A stretch of DNA of 64,000 bases from Magnetococcales bacterium (GTDB lineage Bacteria > Pseudomonadota > Magnetococcia > Magnetococcales > UBA8363): contig JADGCV010000002.1 of NCBI GenBank assembly GCA_015228815.1, positions 62,001 to 126,000 of the forward strand, written 5' to 3'. The notes beneath the pieces were generated by a model that worked only from the letters and a program-made list of their open reading frames with translations, ran no database searches and was not told the DNA's origin. Below are positions 4,177 through 13,718 of this stretch, piece after piece (position 1 is the first letter of the stretch; every line of letters starts with the position of its first letter). The translations under genes were made by a program, and so were the position numbers.

Positions 4177-6879
4177 TCAAGGAGAACATTGGCGCATCAT
4201 CCGGTCGAAGATTTCCCTGGCATCGGTATAACGGTATCCCTGGACCGCCTCGGAGAATTCCGCCAGATGCGGCAGGTGACAGTCGGCAAACTCCCGTTCG
4301 ACTTCTTCCAGAAGATTGCGGACACGGGTATCCCCAAGCCTGAGAAATTCCTCGATATCGTGGGCCATGCGGCGCAGATGTTCGATTTTTTCGGTCGGAA
4401 TGTCGGCAAAGGAGATCTTTCTTTCGGTTTGAACCGCCTTGTCCTCGTCGGCACGCTGAAAAAACTGACCGAGCCCCGAGATCAGAAAGGTCAGATGGTC
4501 CTCCAGTTTTGAAAATAAAGGATGGATCTCATCCAATGAACCGGTGCGCAGCTGGTGTTCGATGCGCGAGGCGACATCATACAGATCATGGGCGCCGATG
4601 GTTCCGGCGATCCCTCTCAAGGTGTGGATTTCCCTCCGGAAGGTTTCATGGTCCTTCTGGATCAAAAGCCGTTCGAGGAGATGGGCCGTCCGCTGATGCT
4701 TCTTGTGGAAGTTTTTCAGGAGTTTATGAAACAGTTTCCGGTTTCCTCCCACCCGGGCCAAACCGTTGGCGAAGACGATGCCGGGGAGATGGATCGGCGC
4801 ATCCTGGTGATCGGCATCGAAAAGCAGCGGCAGATGGTCGGCGACGCGGACAGGGGTTGAAGGTTTGATCCACTGGGCCATGACCGAAAAAAGACGGATG
4901 AAATCGATCGGTTTGGCGACATGATCATTCATTCCCGCCTGGAGACAGAGGATTCGATCCTCCTCCAGGGCATTGGCAGTGAGGGCGATGATGGGCAGAT
5001 CGGTCAGGCCCATGATGTTGCGAATGTGCCGGGTCGCTTCGTAGCCATCCATTCCAGGCATCTGGATGTCCATCAGGACGCCGTCGAAACGATGGCTTGC
5101 CAACACCTGGATCGCATCGAGTCCGTTTTCCGCCACATCAACGTGAACGTTGAGTCGTCCCAGCAACTCGCGACAGACATGCACGTTCATGTCGTTGTCT
5201 TCCACCAACAGGATTTTCGCCCCGCCAAGCCGTTGCGCCATTCGCATCCGTGCCGCCTTGGAGACCCAGGACATGGGGGAGCGTTGTATGCTCTTCCCCG
5301 TCGATTCCAGGATGGCATCGTGCAGAAACGATCGGAAGACCGGTTTTGCCAAAACGATGCCCGGCGGTTGGCCGGCTCCGGGATGATCATGGTGCAGAAC
5401 ATGGGAGGACACAAGACTGATGATGGGAATTTCCCGCGCCTGGGCCTTGCGGAGGATTTCCTCCGGCGGGCTGGAAAGGGAAGAGGCAATCTCGGGCCAT
5501 TCCATGATGATGAGATCGATCGGATCAAGATGACGCCGTTTCTTCATGATCTTGACCCCCTTGTCATAATCATGGGCGTGAACGACGCGGTGCGCGAATT
5601 CCCCGATCATCTCCGTCAGCAGGTCGCGCTGGGTTCCTTCACGATGCACCAGAAGGATGTTGAAGGAGGGAATTTTTTGTTTGGCATGTTCTTCCACGAC
5701 CGTCTGGGTGGCGGCGACTTCCAGGGTCAGGGTGAAGAAAAAGGATGACCCTTTCTCCGGAACGCTTTCGACCCAGATGCGCCCCCCCATGTTTTCCACG
5801 ATGCTCTTGCAGATCGCCAGTCCCAGTCCCGTGCCGCCGTTTTGTCGGTGTCTGTCCGAGGACACCTGGGTGAAGGGGACGAACAGTTTCTCCTGTTGAT
5901 CCTCCGTCAGGCCCACCCCCTGATCCTGGATGCAGAAACGCAGTTGGATTTTTTGTTCCTTTTGCGCGATTGTCTCGATGCGGACGATGATTTCGCCCCG
6001 GTCGGAGTGGCGGATGGCGTTGGTGATCAGATTGATGAGCACCTGCTCCACACGTGCCGCATCGCCGAAAAAACGGGACGGAACATCCTGTCTTTTGTCG
6101 AAAATCAGTTCCAGTCCCTTCCGTTCGAGTTCCAGGCCGACGATGCCCGCGGCATTTTGCAGAATGTCGGTCAGGCGGAAGGGTTGGGATTCCAATTGCA
6201 TTTTACCCGCCTCGATCTTGGAAAAATCGAGGATCTGGTTGATGGTCGCCAGAAGCCTTTTTCCCGAAATGTGAATCGATTCGAGCCAATGCTGCTGCTT
6301 GCGCGACAGGGGGGAGGCCTCAAGGAGTCCGGCCATCCCCAGAACGCTGTTGAGGGGGGTACGCAATTCATGGCTCATCATGGCGAGAAACTGGGATTTG
6401 GCCTCGTTGGCCGCTTCCGCCTCCATCCGGGATTCGCGAATTTGCGGCGCCAGCACTCTTTCGGTGATGTCGTTGAAAATGAAGATCACCTCACCGCGAT
6501 CATCGAGGCGGAAGGCATTCCAGGCAAGCCAGAATTCCCGTTTTCCATCGCGGTAATGAAACGGTTTTGATTTTTGTTTCTGACCGGTCTCATCGACCTT
6601 GCGCAGGCTCTCGGTCAGTTCCGAACGACACAGGCCAGGAAAGATGTCGCACAGATGTTTGTCGCGTATTTTTTTCCGTCTCCGGCCAAGGATGGCTGCG
6701 CCGGCATCGTTGATGTCCAGAAGGACAAAGGGCCGGTCGTTTGTTTCCTCCCGCCGCAGAATCATGGCCCCGGAAACCATTTGTTCGAAGAGTTGGCGGT
6801 AGCGGGTTTCCGTGGCAGGCGCCGTCCGATCTGCCAATTCGGGCACGGGGTTCAAGGTTGATGGTTGTTGTGTGTTCAT
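4177..6879 (-). CDS. Hybrid sensor histidine kinase: PAS, HisKA, HATPase, pseudo-receiver, receiver, HPt
   Basis: 900 residues with no membrane segments, so a cytosolic sensor. The order is PAS-like domain (about 25-145), HisKA with MSHELRTPLN (His170), HATPase with NLITNAIRH (283-291), DQGVGL (319-324) and GGTGLGLAI (348-356). Next comes a receiver-like domain (about 405-525) whose acidic pocket is lost (LLVHREG, LIIMEW) although the AKP lysine remains. A true receiver follows (555-670; LLVEDND, Asp604, Lys656), then an HPt domain (about 700-800; His752 in EIHTLRG) and a helical C-terminal extension. The start codon overlaps the stop of the upstream receiver-kinase gene by four bases, so the pair is coupled. 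The signal is unknown. Confidence 0.9.
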   Translation of the reverse strand: MNTQQPSTLNPVPELADRTAPATETRYRQLFEQMVSGAMILRREETNDRPFVLLDINDAGAAILGRRRKKIRDKHLCDIFPGLCRSELTESLRKVDETGQKQKSKPFHYRDGKREFWLAWNAFRLDDRGEVIFIFNDITERVLAPQIRESRMEAEAANEAKSQFLAMMSHELRTPLNSVLGMAGLLEASPLSRKQQHWLESIHISGKRLLATINQILDFSKIEAGKMQLESQPFRLTDILQNAAGIVGLELERKGLELIFDKRQDVPSRFFGDAARVEQVLINLITNAIRHSDRGEIIVRIETIAQKEQKIQLRFCIQDQGVGLTEDQQEKLFVPFTQVSSDRHRQNGGTGLGLAICKSIVENMGGRIWVESVPEKGSSFFFTLTLEVAATQTVVEEHAKQKIPSFNILLVHREGTQRDLLTEMIGEFAHRVVHAHDYDKGVKIMKKRRHLDPIDLIIMEWPEIASSLSSPPEEILRKAQAREIPIISLVSSHVLHHDHPGAGQPPGIVLAKPVFRSFLHDAILESTGKSIQRSPMSWVSKAARMRMAQRLGGAKILLVEDNDMNVHVCRELLGRLNVHVDVAENGLDAIQVLASHRFDGVLMDIQMPGMDGYEATRHIRNIMGLTDLPIIALTANALEEDRILCLQAGMNDHVAKPIDFIRLFSVMAQWIKPSTPVRVADHLPLLFDADHQDAPIHLPGIVFANGLARVGGNRKLFHKLLKNFHKKHQRTAHLLERLLIQKDHETFRREIHTLRGIAGTIGAHDLYDVASRIEHQLRTGSLDEIHPLFSKLEDHLTFLISGLGQFFQRADEDKAVQTERKISFADIPTEKIEHLRRMAHDIEEFLRLGDTRVRNLLEEVEREFADCHLPHLAEFSEAVQGYRYTDAREIFDRMMRQCSP

Positions 6880-8060
6880 GGGTCGAACCTGGAAGCGTAG
6901 ATGGCGAAGGGACTTTCCAGGGTCTGTCGGGTTTCCGCTCCTGGCGGCGGCAGGGGCAGGCGAACCGTGAGTGTCGTCCCGACCGCGGCGGAGGTGCTCA
7001 TGGTGACGTCGCCATTCATGGTCCGGGCCATGAGCCGCGCCGAATAGGTGCCAAGACCGACCCCGCCAACCTTTCCGGAGGTGACATATTTCTCAAAGAA
7101 ATGGCTCTGGATTTCCCGGGAGACTTCCCCTTCGTTGTGAATATGGGCAATTCTGAAATTTTTTTCGCTTTCCAGTGTGATGGTCACGACCGAACCATTC
7201 GGCGCGGCGTGGAGGGCATTGCGCACCAGGTTGGAAAACAGGCAATAACACAACAACACTTCGCCAAAGACCGAGGCGTGAATCTCGGGGGGAGCGGAAT
7301 CGCCCGAAAGAATGCGCAGATCCAGCGATTTGCCGCGGATGAAGCTGGCATGCTCCCGTTGGATCACCTCGAAAACGGGGAGCAGTGGGACAAGCTCGGG
7401 AATCAGTTCGTAGGTGCCCGTTTCGATGCGATGAAGGTCCTGGGTATGATTGACCATTTCAAGAACCCTGAGCGCGGCGTGTTCGATCACGTTCAACCCT
7501 TCCTCCAGGGTGGGGTTCAGTTCGTGTTTCCGCCGGATCAAGGCCGGAAACTGGGTCAGAATCATGAGCGGCCCCTTCATGTCATGGCGGTTGATCTCGA
7601 ATACCAGTTCCTTGATCCTGGCTGCGTATTCCAGTTGCCGGTTCTTGTTTTCCAGAGCCGCCATGACCGAGGCCAGGGCCAGATGGGTCTTCACCCGCGC
7701 CTTGACGATGGCGGGACTGAACGGTTTCCGGATGTAATCGACGGCGCCGCAGGCCAGACCATGGAGTTCATCTTCCGGGTTGTCCTGCACCGTGATGAAA
7801 ATAACGGGAATGTTGCGTGTCGATTCGTTTTCTTTCAGTAGGTTGCATACTTCATAGCCATCCATTCCCGGCATGACGACATCGAGCAGGACCAGATCGG
7901 GCCTTGGCGCGGCGCACCCCTTTTTCACCCCTTGGGGGCCATCCAGGGCGACGCGCAGGGTATGGTTGGGACTCAACATTTCCACAAGAACATCGATGTC
8001 GGCGGGGCTGTCGTCGATGATCAGCACGATTGGTTTGGAACGATCCATCATTTGGGGCAT
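6876..8060 (-). CDS. Response regulator receiver fused to histidine kinase
   Basis: 394 residues. The N-terminal receiver (about 10-125) has IIDDSPAD, phospho-acceptor Asp60 in LLDVVMPGMDGYE, and Lys112 in RKPF. A helical linker follows with an H-box-like NRHDMKGPL (His159), then a HATPase domain with NLVRNALHAAPNGS and GKVGGVGLGTYSA. There is no membrane segment. Its stop codon overlaps the start of the large hybrid kinase, so both are probably made from one message and may act in one phosphorelay, with this protein as an intermediate. The next genes upstream on the same strand are the sigma-54 activator homologues. Confidence 0.88.
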   Translation of the reverse strand: MPQMMDRSKPIVLIIDDSPADIDVLVEMLSPNHTLRVALDGPQGVKKGCAAPRPDLVLLDVVMPGMDGYEVCNLLKENESTRNIPVIFITVQDNPEDELHGLACGAVDYIRKPFSPAIVKARVKTHLALASVMAALENKNRQLEYAARIKELVFEINRHDMKGPLMILTQFPALIRRKHELNPTLEEGLNVIEHAALRVLEMVNHTQDLHRIETGTYELIPELVPLLPVFEVIQREHASFIRGKSLDLRILSGDSAPPEIHASVFGEVLLCYCLFSNLVRNALHAAPNGSVVTITLESEKNFRIAHIHNEGEVSREIQSHFFEKYVTSGKVGGVGLGTYSARLMARTMNGDVTMSTSAAVGTTLTVRLPLPPPGAETRQTLESPFAIYASRFDP

Positions 8061-8111
8061 CCGGTCCGTTGGATCGATGTTTTTTTTCGATTCGGTTGTT
8101 TCAGGGACGCA

Positions 8112-9029
8112 TCAATGCAGCAGGGTTTCCCGAAGAATCGCCGCTTCTATGGTGTTCCCTTCGCTCCAGAGAATGGCCCGGGCGAGGGTATTGCGCAGTT
8201 CGTGAAGATTTCCCGGCCACGAATGATTGAACAGCATTTTCCGGGCCTCGCGTGAAATGGCCACCGGCGGCGTGGATCGGGTATGAACCGAATGAAATTC
8301 CCGGCGTACCGCCTCGGTGGCGATGTCGATCAGGGCATTGAGGTCGGCGCGGCGTTCCCGCAGTGGCGGAACATTGAGAACGAAGGAACTCAATCGATGC
8401 ATCAGTTCGCCGATCAATGATCCCTGGTCCATCTTCGTGGCAAAATTGTTTTTCGTCGTGGTCGAAAGGATGCGGAAGGGATCGCGGTCGGAGGGATCGT
8501 GGGTTTTGAGCGATTCCACCTTCCTGTTGAACAGGCGCAGGATTTCGGACTGGAACGATTGAGGAAGTTCATCGACATTATCCAGGAGCAAGGTTCCCCT
8601 TTGGACTCCGGGGGGCAGCGCTTCGGGAGGAAACAGACGTTTCCAGGCCATTGAATGGCCTCCATGGTCGGCGCGATCGTCGCCGGTCGTTCCGGGGAGG
8701 GTGCCACAGACGATACGGATCAAGGGTTGGCGGCAGCGATGCGAACTCAGATGGATCAATCGGGCCACGGTATCCTTTCCCGTTCCCGGTTCTCCCTGGA
8801 TCAAGACCGGGCAGTCCATGGCCGCCAGAAGGCGTGCGCGACGAACCAGGTTCTTCATGGGTTGGCTGTAATGAACGAACGGTCCGTCTCCTTCGACCGT
8901 TCCCGGGGGGAGTTGATGATCGTCCACCCGGATCATGGGGGGGATCTCGCGGCGGTTGGCCGGGAGATTGAAACCGCCAGGGGGATCCTCCTTGTCGATG
9001 ATTCCCGAAATTTTCTTTGTTGCGTTCAT
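8112..9029 (-). CDS. Degenerate sigma-54-activator AAA+ protein lacking GAFTGA and HTH
   Basis: 305 residues; ATG preceded by GAGGG seven bases upstream. It is clearly related to the AAA+ domain of NtrC-type activators: Walker A GEPGTGKD (79-86), Walker B-like GTLLLDNVDEL (145-155), PPLRERRADL (221-230) and WPGNLHELRNTL (271-282). The stretch that should carry the sigma-54-contacting GAFTGA loop (about 110-135) is unrelated sequence. The usual DEI after Walker B is changed to DNV, and the protein ends before a DNA-binding domain. It probably cannot activate sigma-54 alone. It may be a regulator or hetero-oligomer partner of the paralogue just upstream, or a gene in decay; the frame is intact. 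Confidence 0.8.
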   Translation of the reverse strand: MNATKKISGIIDKEDPPGGFNLPANRREIPPMIRVDDHQLPPGTVEGDGPFVHYSQPMKNLVRRARLLAAMDCPVLIQGEPGTGKDTVARLIHLSSHRCRQPLIRIVCGTLPGTTGDDRADHGGHSMAWKRLFPPEALPPGVQRGTLLLDNVDELPQSFQSEILRLFNRKVESLKTHDPSDRDPFRILSTTTKNNFATKMDQGSLIGELMHRLSSFVLNVPPLRERRADLNALIDIATEAVRREFHSVHTRSTPPVAISREARKMLFNHSWPGNLHELRNTLARAILWSEGNTIEAAILRETLLH

Positions 9030-9144
9030 GCTTCGACCCTCACGGTTCCACCAGTGACGCCAACCAGGGATGGATTCGATGGACTGGATAAAGTGGATGA
9101 TGATCTGTTCAATGTTTTATACGGGTCTCCCATCGAACGACGGG

Positions 9145-10323
9145 CTATGTATTATTGTTGTTCTTTTCCCATGGATATTTCCGTGACCAATTGGAAAAAG
9201 TCGTTGGATTGGGCAGGCCGAGAAGCCGTGTCGCCAGGGCCTTGTTTCCGCCGCTTTCTCTCAATGCCTTGTTGAAATAATGGTCGGCGACCCGGGAAAG
9301 CATGTCGGCGAGACTGAAATCACCACCAAATTCCTTGGCAAGTATATCTCCCCGGTGGTCCTGTACCGAAGAGAAGATTGCATCCTCGATGTCCTTGAGT
9401 TTGACGGTATGATTTTCACTCCAGAGCATGGCCCGAAGGAGGGTATTGCGCAGTTCACGAATATTTCCGGGCCAGTCGTATTGCATCAGGAACATCCTGG
9501 CCTTGTCGGAAAGTTTTTTCTTGTTGCCGAGGACCGGATGTTGTTCAAGATCGCGATTGATCGCTTTCACGAAGGAATGAATCAATGATTCGAGGTCTTC
9601 GAGGCGACTGCGCAACGGCGGAATCTTGAAGACCGCAACCGCGACGCGGTGAAACAGATCGTTGCGAAAGCGTCCCTGGGCGACATCCTGTAGCAGATTG
9701 CGGTTGGTCGCGGCAATGATGCGGAAATCGACCCGTTGCATCCTGGAGGAACCGACGGCGACGACTTCTCGCTCCTGAATGACCCGGAGGAGTTTGACCT
9801 GGGCCGACAGGGAGAGTTCGCCGATCTCGTCAAGAAACAAGGTTCCCGTATCCGCCTCGGCCACATAACCTTTTCGCGTCGTGACCGCCCCGGTGAAGGC
9901 CCCTTTCTCATGGCCGAACAGTTCCGCCTCGACCAGGTTTTCCGGGATGGCCCCGCAATTGACACAGACAAATGGCGCCTGGCTGCGATTGGAGGCCCGA
10001 TGGATCAATCGGGCCAGAACATCCTTTCCCGTCCCCGACTCTCCCTGCAATAAAATGGGCCAGTCCAACGTCGCCACATGCCGTGCCCGGCGAAGAAGGA
10101 TTTTCATCGATTCGCTGCGAAACACCATCGCGTGTTCATCGATGTCGCTGTCGGCTTCTCCATCCTTCACCCTTTCATCGTCTGCATCTTTTTTTATTTC
10201 CACGGGATCATTCGTGATTTCTTCATCGGTTTTTCCATTTGGAAGAGGTGCGTCTTTTTCTTTTTCCTCACTCATTCTTTTTTTCCATTTCGACATGGTG
10301 ATTGGCGCGGAAAACCGGTCCAC
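9145..10323 (-). CDS. Sigma-54-dependent transcriptional activator (AAA+ with HTH, no receiver)
   Basis: 392 residues. A charged N-terminal stretch (11-65) replaces a sensory domain. The AAA+ core has Walker A GESGTGKD (94-101), an intact GAFTGA loop (141-146), Walker B GTLFLDEI (160-167), AATNRNL (205-211), PPLRSRLEDLESL and WPGNIRELRNTL (284-295). A Fis-like helix-turn-helix lies near 345-380 (HYFNKALRESGGNKALATRLLGL). I use the GTG at 10323, with AGGAGG about 13 bases and AAAGG about 5 bases upstream; the ATG at 10296 has no ribosome site. With no receiver or GAF domain, activity may be controlled by protein partners, possibly the degenerate paralogue next door. Confidence 0.87.
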   Translation of the reverse strand: MDRFSAPITMSKWKKRMSEEKEKDAPLPNGKTDEEITNDPVEIKKDADDERVKDGEADSDIDEHAMVFRSESMKILLRRARHVATLDWPILLQGESGTGKDVLARLIHRASNRSQAPFVCVNCGAIPENLVEAELFGHEKGAFTGAVTTRKGYVAEADTGTLFLDEIGELSLSAQVKLLRVIQEREVVAVGSSRMQRVDFRIIAATNRNLLQDVAQGRFRNDLFHRVAVAVFKIPPLRSRLEDLESLIHSFVKAINRDLEQHPVLGNKKKLSDKARMFLMQYDWPGNIRELRNTLLRAMLWSENHTVKLKDIEDAIFSSVQDHRGDILAKEFGGDFSLADMLSRVADHYFNKALRESGGNKALATRLLGLPNPTTFSNWSRKYPWEKNNNNT

Positions 10324-10694
10324 AAAGCCTTTGGAACCTCCTGGGAGGCGATCATATCCATTGAAGATGAGTTGAAGAGCAGGTGGAGAATGTGCATTTC
10401 CCCATCACGGTCAAAGAAAAATCCATGCCACTTCACTTTTCATCGTGTGAAGGTTTCGGCATTTCTTCTCCGTACCGTTTTCCTATGGGAAAGGGGCGTT
10501 TTTTTTATATGATAAATCAATGCATTGTAATGATGGGAAAGGGGCGTGCCCCTGGATTGGATCCTGCCTGACGGGTCGGCGAATGCGGTTTTCCGGTCTG
10601 TGTTTCAGGGGTGAGAAGTGAAGAATTCATCCGCATCATGAAGAAGTTTTTCGATGATCGTCCTTGATCGATTCGGATATTTTCGGATCCAGGT
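10324..10694. other. Intergenic region with a short direct repeat
   Basis: About 370 bases between the sigma-54 activator start and the end of the small NWGHP-domain gene. No convincing gene is visible. It holds two copies of a 15-base repeat (listed separately), one leading into a short GGGGC/GCCCC hairpin at 10541-10552. It probably contains the promoter of the activator gene. Confidence 0.5.
10485..10547. repeat. Two direct copies of a 15-base repeat
   Basis: ATGGGAAAGGGGCGT occurs at 10485-10499 and again at 10533-10547, 48 bases start to start. The second copy continues into a small palindrome (GGGGCGTGCCCC, 10541-10552). The copies lie 160-220 bases upstream of the sigma-54 activator start, so they could be operator or activator sites. 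Function is not shown. Confidence 0.5.
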
Positions 10695-11009
10695 TCAAAG
10701 GGGCAGTTTGCGGATTGTGTCCGGAAGGGTGCCAAAAAAAGGGGGAAACTCGCAATCGAACACAAAGGCTTCTTCGCCTTTTTCGGCCAGCAACACCCCC
10801 ATGGCGGGATGGCCCCAGTTGGCGATTGGCATCAGGTCGATAAAGATGAAATGGCCCGCGAAGGGGACGATAAACTCTTGCCTTCCCAGGGTGATGCGTT
10901 CTCCAGGCTCCTTGGGTTGCGTGTCCAGGTAAACCACGGCCTCGCCGTGACGTTCCGTTGGTATCAGGGATTTGATGCGAGCGATTATTTGCGAATCTTC
11001 CAGGTTCAT
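10695..11009 (-). CDS. Small protein with the same NWGHP domain as the adjacent caspase-like peptidase
   Basis: 104 residues from ATG 11009, which has GGAGG five bases upstream; an in-frame upstream start at 11066 lacks a ribosome site. I recognise no named family. Residues about 20-92 align with the N-terminus of the caspase-like protein encoded just upstream. Shared features in order are a V-x-L strand, a G-x-x-x-x-LGRQ turn, D-x-x-P-x-x-NWGHP, then GE and PP. No signal peptide or membrane helix is visible. It follows the peptidase gene on the same strand by 115 bases, so the two are likely co-expressed. It may bind the same ligand or act as a free-standing prodomain-like partner; this is inference. 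Confidence 0.7.
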   Translation of the reverse strand: MNLEDSQIIARIKSLIPTERHGEAVVYLDTQPKEPGERITLGRQEFIVPFAGHFIFIDLMPIANWGHPAMGVLLAEKGEEAFVFDCEFPPFFGTLPDTIRKLPL

Positions 11010-11124
11010 CGATGCCTCCAGGCAGGAACGAATCGAATTGTCGCACAAAAGTTGGCATATCGGCAAGAACGAACCTGCCCTGGAGCCATACGCTTCCAGG
11101 GCAAGCCGTTCTTGTTCTACCCGT

Positions 11125-13026
11125 TTAACACTTGACGTCGGTGTAGTTGATGCTTGAGATGGGGAAGGTCATGTCGGCAAGTCGTGTACCGTTGGTGTTG
11201 TAATGATACAGATGGTTGGCGGAGGCCAGGTACAGATCATTGCTCGTTCCGGTGGTGATGCCATTGGCATTGAAGCCTGTATTGAACCAGGACAATTGAG
11301 CCAGGTTCAAATCACGAACGGTCACCCCTTGTTGTGATCCCATATAAGAGGCGTACAGGTTGGGGCCATTGACGGCAACATCCGTATAGACGACACCCGG
11401 GAAGGTGATACTGGTAATGGCTGAACCGTTTGTGTTGAACTTGCACAGCTGATTTCCCGCAGCCAGGTAAATATCGTTGCTCGATCCTGCCGCGATACCG
11501 GTGGCGTTGACGCCAGTGTTGAAACATGAGAGTTGATTCAAGGCCAAGTCACGGATGGTGACGCCTTGTTGCGAGCCCATATATGCGGCATAGACCTTGC
11601 CGTCGCGAACGACGATACCGGTGTATTTGATGGAGGATATGGGGAAGGTCATGACCCTTATGAGCGTGCCTTGGGTGCTGAAGTTGTATATCTGGTTGCC
11701 GGAGGTCAGGTAGACATCGTTGTTTTGACCGACAGCGATGGAACTGGCGCTGATGCCTGTATTGAAACAGGAAATCTGATTCAACTGGGAATCGCGAAGG
11801 GTGACGCCCAATTGTGAGCCGTTGTAGGAAGCATAAATGACTTGTTTCGCACCAGTCAGGTATTGATTGCTGCCACAATTGACGGGGTTGTCGGCAAAGA
11901 CGGGTGAATCGCCAGCGACTTTGACGGCGTTGGCATAGTCGAAGGCATTCCGGGCGGATGCCGGGTTTGGCACCGGTTGCGAGAGGGCCGAACCATTGGG
12001 ATTCTTTCCGGTGACCGCGGCAATCCAGTCCTTGGCGAATGGATCGAAGTCGGGACCGCCCATCGAATTGGCCGTGGCAATACAGGCGGCGGCAAAGGAG
12101 GTGGCAGTCGCCTTGGAATTGTTGATCACCGCCGATTGAAATCCACCGGAGTGACATTGTTCCATCATGACGATAAGCGATGCAATGGTGGGCAATGCTC
12201 CAATCTTGTTGCCAAATTGTGTTGCGGTAAAGCTGTCCCAATTGGGATAGCAGCAGAGCCATGCCTCGGGGTCGCTTGGCTGTCCACCGCCATGGTTGTT
12301 GGTGTGAATCAGTAATAGATCATTGGCCTGCAATTTTCCCTTGATCGCATCCAATGCGGCCCCCAACTGAACATTGGTGCCCTGACCATTGACCCTGATC
12401 GTATAAGGCGTGTTGTTCCCGGGCCAGTTCACCACGGGTTGCGGGTCACCGGAATAATTGACCGTCCCGTCATAATTCAAAACGGTAATATTCGCCGCGT
12501 CAAAATTGTACACATTGATCAGTGTTCTGTACAGGAACTCAAGATCGTTCAGATGGCGGTTGTTCGACATGCCAGAAAACAGAATGGCGTACCGTTTGCC
12601 CGTGACATTGGCCAAGGCGTTGTCGAGTTGCGGAATGGATGCCTGTTCTACAGTATTTGATATTTTTTCAGGTCGATGCACCAAGGGTGCGTGAATGGCG
12701 GTATAGTTTTTCGGGGTGTGGTGATAAGAATCCGGTGGGAGCTGAGAGGCATGGGTTTCGTAATGTTCACCGTTTTCCACGTCGTACAGCATGAGTTCAC
12801 AAGGGTGTCCCCAGTTGTGGAGCGGGGCGTGGTCCACCAATACCAATGCCGATTTTTTTGTGACGGTGACCTGACGACCAAGGCCAAGCACCAGGGATTT
12901 CCCTTTGTCGATGCTTTCATCGTTCAAGTAAAGGTTCACATGTTCCGGATTGGCGTCATTTCTCAATTTCAACTGGGTTATGGCGTGATTCTTGATCTTT
13001 TCCTTGACATTATTTTGTATTCTCAT
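11125..13026 (-). CDS. Caspase-like (clan CD, C13/C14-type) peptidase with NWGHP domain and propeller-like repeats
   Basis: 633 residues; ATG with GGGGAG eight bases upstream. Residues 20-98 form a domain also found in the downstream small gene (NWGHP at 71-75). Residues about 143-340 look like a caspase/legumain fold: KRYAILFSG strand, LLLIHTNNHGGG with candidate catalytic His245, and VMMEQCHSGGF with candidate Cys291. Residues about 395-630 contain three repeats of about 80 residues (YASYNGSQ, AAYMGSQQGVT, YASYMGSQQGVT; each with FNTG, a GxxNDxYL motif and TFP), resembling beta-propeller blades. There is no signal peptide, so it is probably intracellular. The substrate and trigger are unknown. 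The dyad placement is from motif recognition only. Confidence 0.8.
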   Translation of the reverse strand: MRIQNNVKEKIKNHAITQLKLRNDANPEHVNLYLNDESIDKGKSLVLGLGRQVTVTKKSALVLVDHAPLHNWGHPCELMLYDVENGEHYETHASQLPPDSYHHTPKNYTAIHAPLVHRPEKISNTVEQASIPQLDNALANVTGKRYAILFSGMSNNRHLNDLEFLYRTLINVYNFDAANITVLNYDGTVNYSGDPQPVVNWPGNNTPYTIRVNGQGTNVQLGAALDAIKGKLQANDLLLIHTNNHGGGQPSDPEAWLCCYPNWDSFTATQFGNKIGALPTIASLIVMMEQCHSGGFQSAVINNSKATATSFAAACIATANSMGGPDFDPFAKDWIAAVTGKNPNGSALSQPVPNPASARNAFDYANAVKVAGDSPVFADNPVNCGSNQYLTGAKQVIYASYNGSQLGVTLRDSQLNQISCFNTGISASSIAVGQNNDVYLTSGNQIYNFSTQGTLIRVMTFPISSIKYTGIVVRDGKVYAAYMGSQQGVTIRDLALNQLSCFNTGVNATGIAAGSSNDIYLAAGNQLCKFNTNGSAITSITFPGVVYTDVAVNGPNLYASYMGSQQGVTVRDLNLAQLSWFNTGFNANGITTGTSNDLYLASANHLYHYNTNGTRLADMTFPISSINYTDVKC

Positions 13027-13718
13027 GGTGTTTTCTCCCCTTTGCTTTGTGGTTGACCGGCATTCTACTTATTGATGTTGTCCATAGGATGCAAAAAGAA
13101 TAAGCGTTTAATTTCAATCCTTGATCGTATTAGATAATCCTAATATTTCGCATTGGCTCCATGGTGAAAATTGAGCAAATGAAGCGCTTGACGAGCCATG
13201 GGCGACCATCCTACGCCCGTTTTCTTATCCTGTCCAGATTGTTTTTTACAAAATTACCTTGAACCATAAGAACGTCTAACGATTTATTTATTCCCTGCTT
13301 GATGTCATCATAATCATCGACCGTGACGCTTGATGTGACGGAAGATGTGGCCAAGGGTTTGTGCTGGAGGGATGGTTAAGAATTATTGCCTGATGCAAAA
13401 GATTCTTTATTGAATGATCGGAAAGGTCGGCGGCTGAGCGGGTGGGAAAGGCGGGTTCGAATGCGGGGTTCATCGGTTGCGCAATCTGTTGAAAAATACA
13501 ATTAAAACAGTTATTTAATTTTAATTGTCATTGGCGCCTGATGGTGGATCGATCGGGGTGATGCCATGGCGATGGCATGGTTCTGGCTGTTATCGGGTTG
13601 CGGGAGCGGAGGACGGGGCGGGGGCTGGAACCTGGGAATCGATTCCTGGTCCTGGCCTTGACCCGGTTCGCGCCCATTTCGATCATCGTGTACAACTCGA
13701 AGACGGGGAGATGAGGAA
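13027..13718. other. Long intergenic region, AT-richer than its surroundings
   Basis: About 690 bases between the divergently transcribed peptidase and HD-GYP genes. The first 500 bases are visibly AT-richer than the flanking genes; no open frame with a ribosome site is seen. It must contain both divergent promoters. A 9-base inverted repeat lies at 13499-13527. The base composition may mark the edge of a transferred segment that includes the peptidase pair. Confidence 0.55.
13499..13527. repeat. AT-rich inverted repeat
   Basis: Arms CAATTAAAA (13499-13507) and TTTTAATTG (13519-13527) are perfect complements around an 11-base loop. It lies in the divergent promoter region about 190 bases upstream of the HD-GYP gene. 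It could be a dimeric regulator site; it is a poor terminator because the stem has almost no GC. Confidence 0.5.

Follow-up and report, generated by a model that had tools for sequence, protein, structure and literature searches.

A 64,000-nucleotide stretch of DNA from a Magnetococcales bacterium (contig JADGCV010000002.1, positions 62,001 to 126,000; hereafter the window) encodes, next to each other on the reverse strand, a 633-residue cysteine peptidase and a 104-residue protein. The larger protein belongs to clan CD and, within it, to peptidase family C13 (legumain) rather than to the C14 caspases; it is a rare bacterial relative of the legumain of plants and animals. Its N-terminal domain, here called the NWxH domain, is homologous to the smaller protein. 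The pair recurs in bacteria and in an archaeon, which suggests that built-in protease regulators, most probably inhibitors, form a family not described before. By analogy with known prodomains and inhibitors, the reading that we favour, at a little under an even chance, is a protease-regulator cassette in which a pseudosubstrate prodomain would act in cis and the small protein would inhibit in trans.

A legumain-family peptidase with an exchangeable tail

A sequence-only reading of this DNA had proposed a caspase-like peptidase with a candidate His245/Cys291 dyad of clan CD. The clan and the dyad hold, but the caspase family does not: the protein matches the Pfam model Peptidase_C13 (PF01650) at 26.6 bits, above the cut-off of 22.8, and C14 identity was ruled out since no match to that family was found in Pfam up to an E-value of 1. 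The C13 model is also matched, at E up to 0.01, by 12 of 12 homologues, in which H245, G246, E289 and C291 are invariant and place the His-Cys dyad in H-G and E-x-C motifs. As the earlier reading had expected, the predicted model of the peptidase has a clan CD fold, even though its confidence is low overall; its best Foldseek match in the Protein Data Bank (PDB) is Arabidopsis thaliana legumain gamma (5obt; E 1.9e-6, probability 1.00), with metacaspases ranked below it, and a catalytic-domain profile also matched legumains and metacaspases in the PDB. The assignment to C13 rather than C14 therefore rests on the Pfam score, the best fold match and the catalytic-domain profile.

With legumain (asparaginyl endopeptidase, MEROPS C13, PF01650) the window protein shares the catalytic fold, the dyad and probably the arginine of the S1 pocket, its invariant Arg157 aligning with legumain Arg44; it differs in having a beta-rich N-terminal domain and a variable tail of propeller-like repeats. 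Prokaryotic caspase homologues and orthocaspases are likewise bacterial clan CD His-Cys peptidases, but they belong to C14. No signal peptide was seen on the 633-residue protein.

The three propeller-like repeats of about 80 residues noticed earlier are real, beginning near residues 399, 483 and 562 and aligning with few gaps. This C-terminal tail is swapped among close relatives, and 2 of the 12 homologues match models of CV39L-type beta-propeller lectins; these are most likely the proteins of loci L005 and L006, through their GSDNALWHIWQ repeats. A few homologues also match acylphosphatase models. In addition, an EF-hand-like loop lies in the C-terminal part of the catalytic domain at L008-L016, L042 and L054 (for example, DADTDGDGRIEAEE at L014) and is degenerate in the window protein; this motif suggests that the relatives may depend on Ca2+.

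The NWxH domain and its conserved loop

The fused domain and the 104-residue protein are detectably similar by pairwise blastp (E 1e-7), and profile-profile alignment with hhalign joins residues 13-104 of the small protein to residues 16-116 of the peptidase (98.8% probability, E 5.5e-17), with the NWGHP regions covered in both and the predicted secondary structures matching element by element. The earlier proposal that the same domain stands alone in the next gene is thus confirmed, although LGRQ, which had been listed among its features, is not conserved in the family. The small protein is modelled by AlphaFold2 as one helix and seven strands (mean predicted local distance difference test score, pLDDT, 87; predicted template modelling score, pTM, 0.80). 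The domain had no match among Pfam, NCBIfam, PHROGs or PADLOC models, and Foldseek searches with the small protein gave nothing significant in the PDB (best E 1.0) or among the viral models of BFVD.

The family signature is DxxPxx-N-[W/F/Y]-x-H plus PP. Conservation within the domain peaks at the loop D58-H67 of the small protein, where the mean entropy is 1.16 bits vs 2.52 in the rest; two strands flank this loop, and confidence is low there in both the stand-alone and the peptidase models. Its asparagine is present in 29 of 29 aligned domains and in further C13-linked domains, and is kept in every domain linked to a C13 peptidase that has its catalytic residues (about 22 fused and 14 stand-alone). 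The residue is lost in both domains of L057 (ADF, AYF), beside a subtilase, and in L117 (AFLPH), where the C13-like domain lacks the catalytic Cys and His (SNHSGG; TGQTS). Across these domains, the loop asparagine tracks the catalytic competence of the linked C13 domain. The L057 protein itself (L057:2707-5260) is secreted, carries two tandem NWxH-like domains and lies upstream of, and on the same strand as, a subtilase with a fervidolysin-type propeptide; the L117 protein (L117:538-1902) is a C13-like lipoprotein in which the catalytic Cys is replaced by Asn, and is a probable pseudopeptidase.

Alternatively, the loop might belong to a ligand or partner sensor: its Asp, Pro, Asn and His would bind one small molecule, metal or peptide in both copies, and the small protein would serve as a soluble sensor, a delivery factor or a decoy. 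The invariance of all four residues, the sensor- or lectin-like and exchangeable tails, and the presence of the domain in phages and in a subtilase neighbourhood are consistent with this idea, but a generic ligand site does not predict that the asparagine should be absent where the C13 domain is dead or the neighbour is a subtilase, and we regard a sensor as unlikely.

Conservation and history of the gene pair

Close relatives were sought in one scan of 84,980 species, which gave 11 loci, and a twelfth came from a plasmid search; the counts given here rest on samples and homology thresholds, several relatives are metagenome-assembled genomes (MAGs), and reading frames are broken at some loci (L055, L056). 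The 11 loci belong to Chlorobiaceae, Thiothrix, Betaproteobacteria, Desulfobacteraceae, an unclassified Proteobacteria MAG, Planctomycetota, Electrothrix, Verrucomicrobia, Acidobacteria and two unclassified MAGs. The twelfth is from the archaeon Methanomethylovorans hollandica: on its plasmid pMETHO01, the small gene stands directly upstream of the peptidase but carries no annotation.

When a profile of the small protein was run over the 12 whole genomes or records, exactly one stand-alone copy was found in 10 of them, adjoining the peptidase, and none elsewhere in them, so the predicted co-occurrence of both genes in other genomes is borne out. The small gene lies downstream of the peptidase in the window and at L005-L010, upstream at L013, L014 and L016, and convergent to it at L015. 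Because the linkage outlasts these changes in gene order, it points to a functional connection rather than passive synteny. At L099, a stand-alone domain directly precedes a C13 peptidase that begins at its catalytic domain and has no fused copy, although this peptidase match is weak (21.1 bits, just below the cut-off). Of all the observations, this arrangement argues most strongly that the catalytic domain may be what the stand-alone domain acts on.

A tree of 29 domains groups the fused copies of this branch into a single clade (support 95/94) that excludes the stand-alone copies, so the duplication into stand-alone and fused copies is old; subclades are mirrored between the two sets, and both copies were then inherited together. 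Distance matrices of the small protein and the catalytic domain correlate at r 0.77 (0 of 5000 permutations were as high), and those of the stand-alone and fused domains at r 0.89.

This mirrored relatedness, together with the side-by-side encoding of two homologous domains in nearly all relatives, would also be expected of a homotypic adaptor: by binding its fused counterpart, the stand-alone copy would recruit, cluster or activate the peptidase, much as CARD and DED domains do with caspases. However, the C13 peptidase at L099 has no fused domain to bind, a stand-alone copy is only 17-30% identical to its own fused copy, and the predicted fold is beta-rich rather than that of a small helical death-like adaptor. 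An adaptor role therefore seems improbable to us, to much the same degree as a sensor.

In phage and plasmid collections no phage match was found, and the plasmid matches to the peptidase and small gene were confined to pMETHO01; a viral scan with the peptidase profile gave no relative. A profile search over 398 genomes of the window's phylum matched the window's own genome only, and a search of 162 genomes of a single class recovered only the seed locus and a weak catalytic-domain match. C13 peptidases are common in certain bacterial classes, occurring in 38 of 232 genomes sampled in one of them, and most of these C13-bearing genomes had no NWxH domain.

Broader searches also turned up secreted C13 peptidases that carry the domain at the N-terminus and end in an FlgD-like or another tail (L042, L100, L101, L102, L115 and L116). 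At L054 a stand-alone domain on a putative lipoprotein is followed by a secreted C13 peptidase, so that the partners of this pair are predicted to share a compartment. The C13 gene of another secreted pair (L055:4830-6692) is interrupted by an in-frame TAG, which reflects either a pseudogene or a sequencing error. In addition, three distinct metagenomic phage contigs carry a stand-alone or C-terminal domain (L058:4452-5141, L060:4839-5171 and L061:4830-5147); a fourth, L059, repeats L058 and was not counted.

Proposed mechanism and its precedents

In the cassette that we favour, the small beta-rich N-terminal domain would be the prodomain of a legumain-family peptidase, and the neighbouring gene would supply a separate, anciently diverged copy of it that controls the same catalytic domain in trans. 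The DxxPxxN(W/F/Y)xH loop would be presented to the active site as a pseudosubstrate with its asparagine in the S1 pocket, so the fused copy would keep the enzyme latent and the free copy could act as an inhibitor or antidote after the enzyme is released or activated. The exchangeable tail would direct the enzyme and probably set its binding target. We infer that the small protein inhibits, that the loop reaches the S1 pocket and that the tail has this function.

The pseudosubstrate reading draws on two analogies. First, the cystatins and mycocypins that inhibit legumain use a loop to place a conserved P1-Asn in its S1 pocket (PMC9579014), and legumain prefers Asn at P1 (PMC4357240). Cystatin E/M and the mycocypins are unrelated to the window protein in sequence, however, and are separate animal and fungal proteins rather than prodomain copies. 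Second, gingipains RgpB and Kgp (C25) are clan CD enzymes with an N-terminal prodomain, and in RgpB a prodomain loop inserts an Arg, as the P1-like residue, into S1 (PMC4357240). Gingipains differ in belonging to another peptidase family, in their larger prodomain and in showing no detectable sequence or fold relation to the NWxH domain. We know of no stand-alone genomic copy of a gingipain prodomain. A precedent for the trans-acting half is found in the I29 propeptide-like inhibitors (CTLA-2alpha, crammer and BCPI), stand-alone relatives of prodomains that inhibit in trans (PMC4089206), as is proposed for the 104-residue protein, although they act on papain-family enzymes, are eukaryotic and have an unrelated fold.

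The same precedents bear on the possibility that the small protein is instead a substrate, cut after Asn64 (N|WGHP) to release a signal or effector. The P1 preference of legumain (PMC4357240), the placement of the asparagine in a loop and the slow cleavage of some loop inhibitors by legumain (PMC9579014) fit such a role. The same asparagine is conserved in the fused copy, however, and the 104-residue protein has no toxic or signalling domain, so we consider a substrate very improbable. The sequence-only reading had named the small protein as a possible inhibitor or substrate; both remain plausible, and the L099 pairing and the behaviour of the loop asparagine strengthen that proposal.

Several observations weigh against a pseudosubstrate cassette. 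Within the loop, Asp, Pro and His show the same invariance as Asn, which would also fit a ligand site or a structural turn, and the cases of Asn loss amount to three domains at two loci only. Among the S1 residues of legumain, His45 has a counterpart, His158, only in the cytosolic branch, the secreted branch having Tyr, and no clear equivalent of Asp231 could be mapped in the window peptidase. The AlphaFold2 model of the peptidase has a mean pLDDT of 51, poor mainly in the tail. At L011 and L012 there is a fused copy with no stand-alone gene, and the phage domains at L058, L060 and L061 keep the loop Asn though no C13 peptidase lies in their contigs. These phage copies could be accommodated by a wider and very improbable proposal, that of a new class of protease-inhibitor module common to bacteria, archaea and phages, in which cellular copies would restrain their own legumain-like protease and phage copies would block host C13 peptidases in a phage-host conflict.

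The locus and its neighbours

Coordinates of the pair are collected in Table 1. The open reading frame of the small protein starts with ATG at 11009, a few bases downstream of a GGAGG. Hairpins separate the two genes in the window and, at the same position, at L005, L006 and L007, so the genes may be expressed unequally; a consensus scan for terminators found no classical terminator at the window hairpin. A signal peptide considered for the small proteins of L005 and L006 was rejected, the hydrophobic stretch being a translated intergenic hairpin with its U-rich tail.

Table 1. Features of the peptidase pair in the window
Feature	Position	Strand	Basis
C13 (legumain-like) cysteine peptidase, 633 residues	11125..13026	-	Pfam PF01650; Foldseek 5obt
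Peptidase N-terminal NWxH domain, residues 16-116	12679..12981	-	hhalign against stand-alone family; fused-copy clade 95/94
NWGHP loop part of fused domain, residues 71-75	12802..12816	-	N71 and H74 invariant in 12 homologues; low-confidence model segment 70-74
Legumain-like catalytic domain, about residues 145-375	11902..12594	-	Pfam, fold match and conservation; Arg157 aligned with legumain Arg44
Catalytic His245 codon	12292..12294	-	Invariant in 12 and in 16 homologues
Catalytic Cys291 codon, motif EQCHSGG	12154..12156	-	Invariant in 12 and in 16 homologues
Three propeller-like repeats of about 80 residues, residues 399-633	11128..11832	-	Repeat alignment; tail differs among relatives
Strong intergenic hairpin, possible terminator or attenuator	11064..11114	-	Folding of intergenic DNA; no T run at this hairpin
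Stand-alone NWxH protein, 104 residues	10695..11009	-	AlphaFold2 mean pLDDT 87, pTM 0.80; no family match
DLMPIANWGH loop at residues 58-67, a candidate pseudosubstrate containing Asn64	10809..10838	-	D58, P61, N64 and H67 invariant in 29 domains

The pair is absent from seven same-genus genomes. In one of these sisters, G005, the sigma-54 activators and the HD-GYP response regulator that flank the pair are both present but enclose different genes, which supports a recent gain by the window's organism or a loss in its sisters. Compared with window positions 10400-13400, G005 has, at L113, an XRE-type regulator and a large sensor-kinase-like protein in the place of the peptidase pair. The earlier suggestion of a mobile or recently gained module is therefore upheld for recent gain, with loss in sisters as the alternative; no mobile-element gene was seen. 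The AT-rich stretch is modest (G+C 45% at 12501-13500 vs about 55-59%). A link to death or defence is not supported: six proteins had no PADLOC match at E 0.01, and secreted forms occur among the relatives. A cluster of a hybrid histidine kinase, a response regulator-ATPase and two sigma-54 activators (window 4177-10323) follows downstream of the pair, also on the reverse strand.

Significance for bacterial C13 peptidases

To our knowledge, no regulator of bacterial C13 peptidases has been described, and no paper naming a bacterial or prokaryotic legumain was found in the literature searched. The cassette provides a candidate regulator for these enzymes, together with a testable loop residue, and it is a compact system in which to ask if prokaryotic clan CD proteases, like cathepsins, gave rise to inhibitors derived from their prodomains. 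If the proposed mechanism is true, the NWxH domain would represent a new family of inhibitors whose fold is unmatched in the PDB, and would offer a handle on the function of bacterial legumains.
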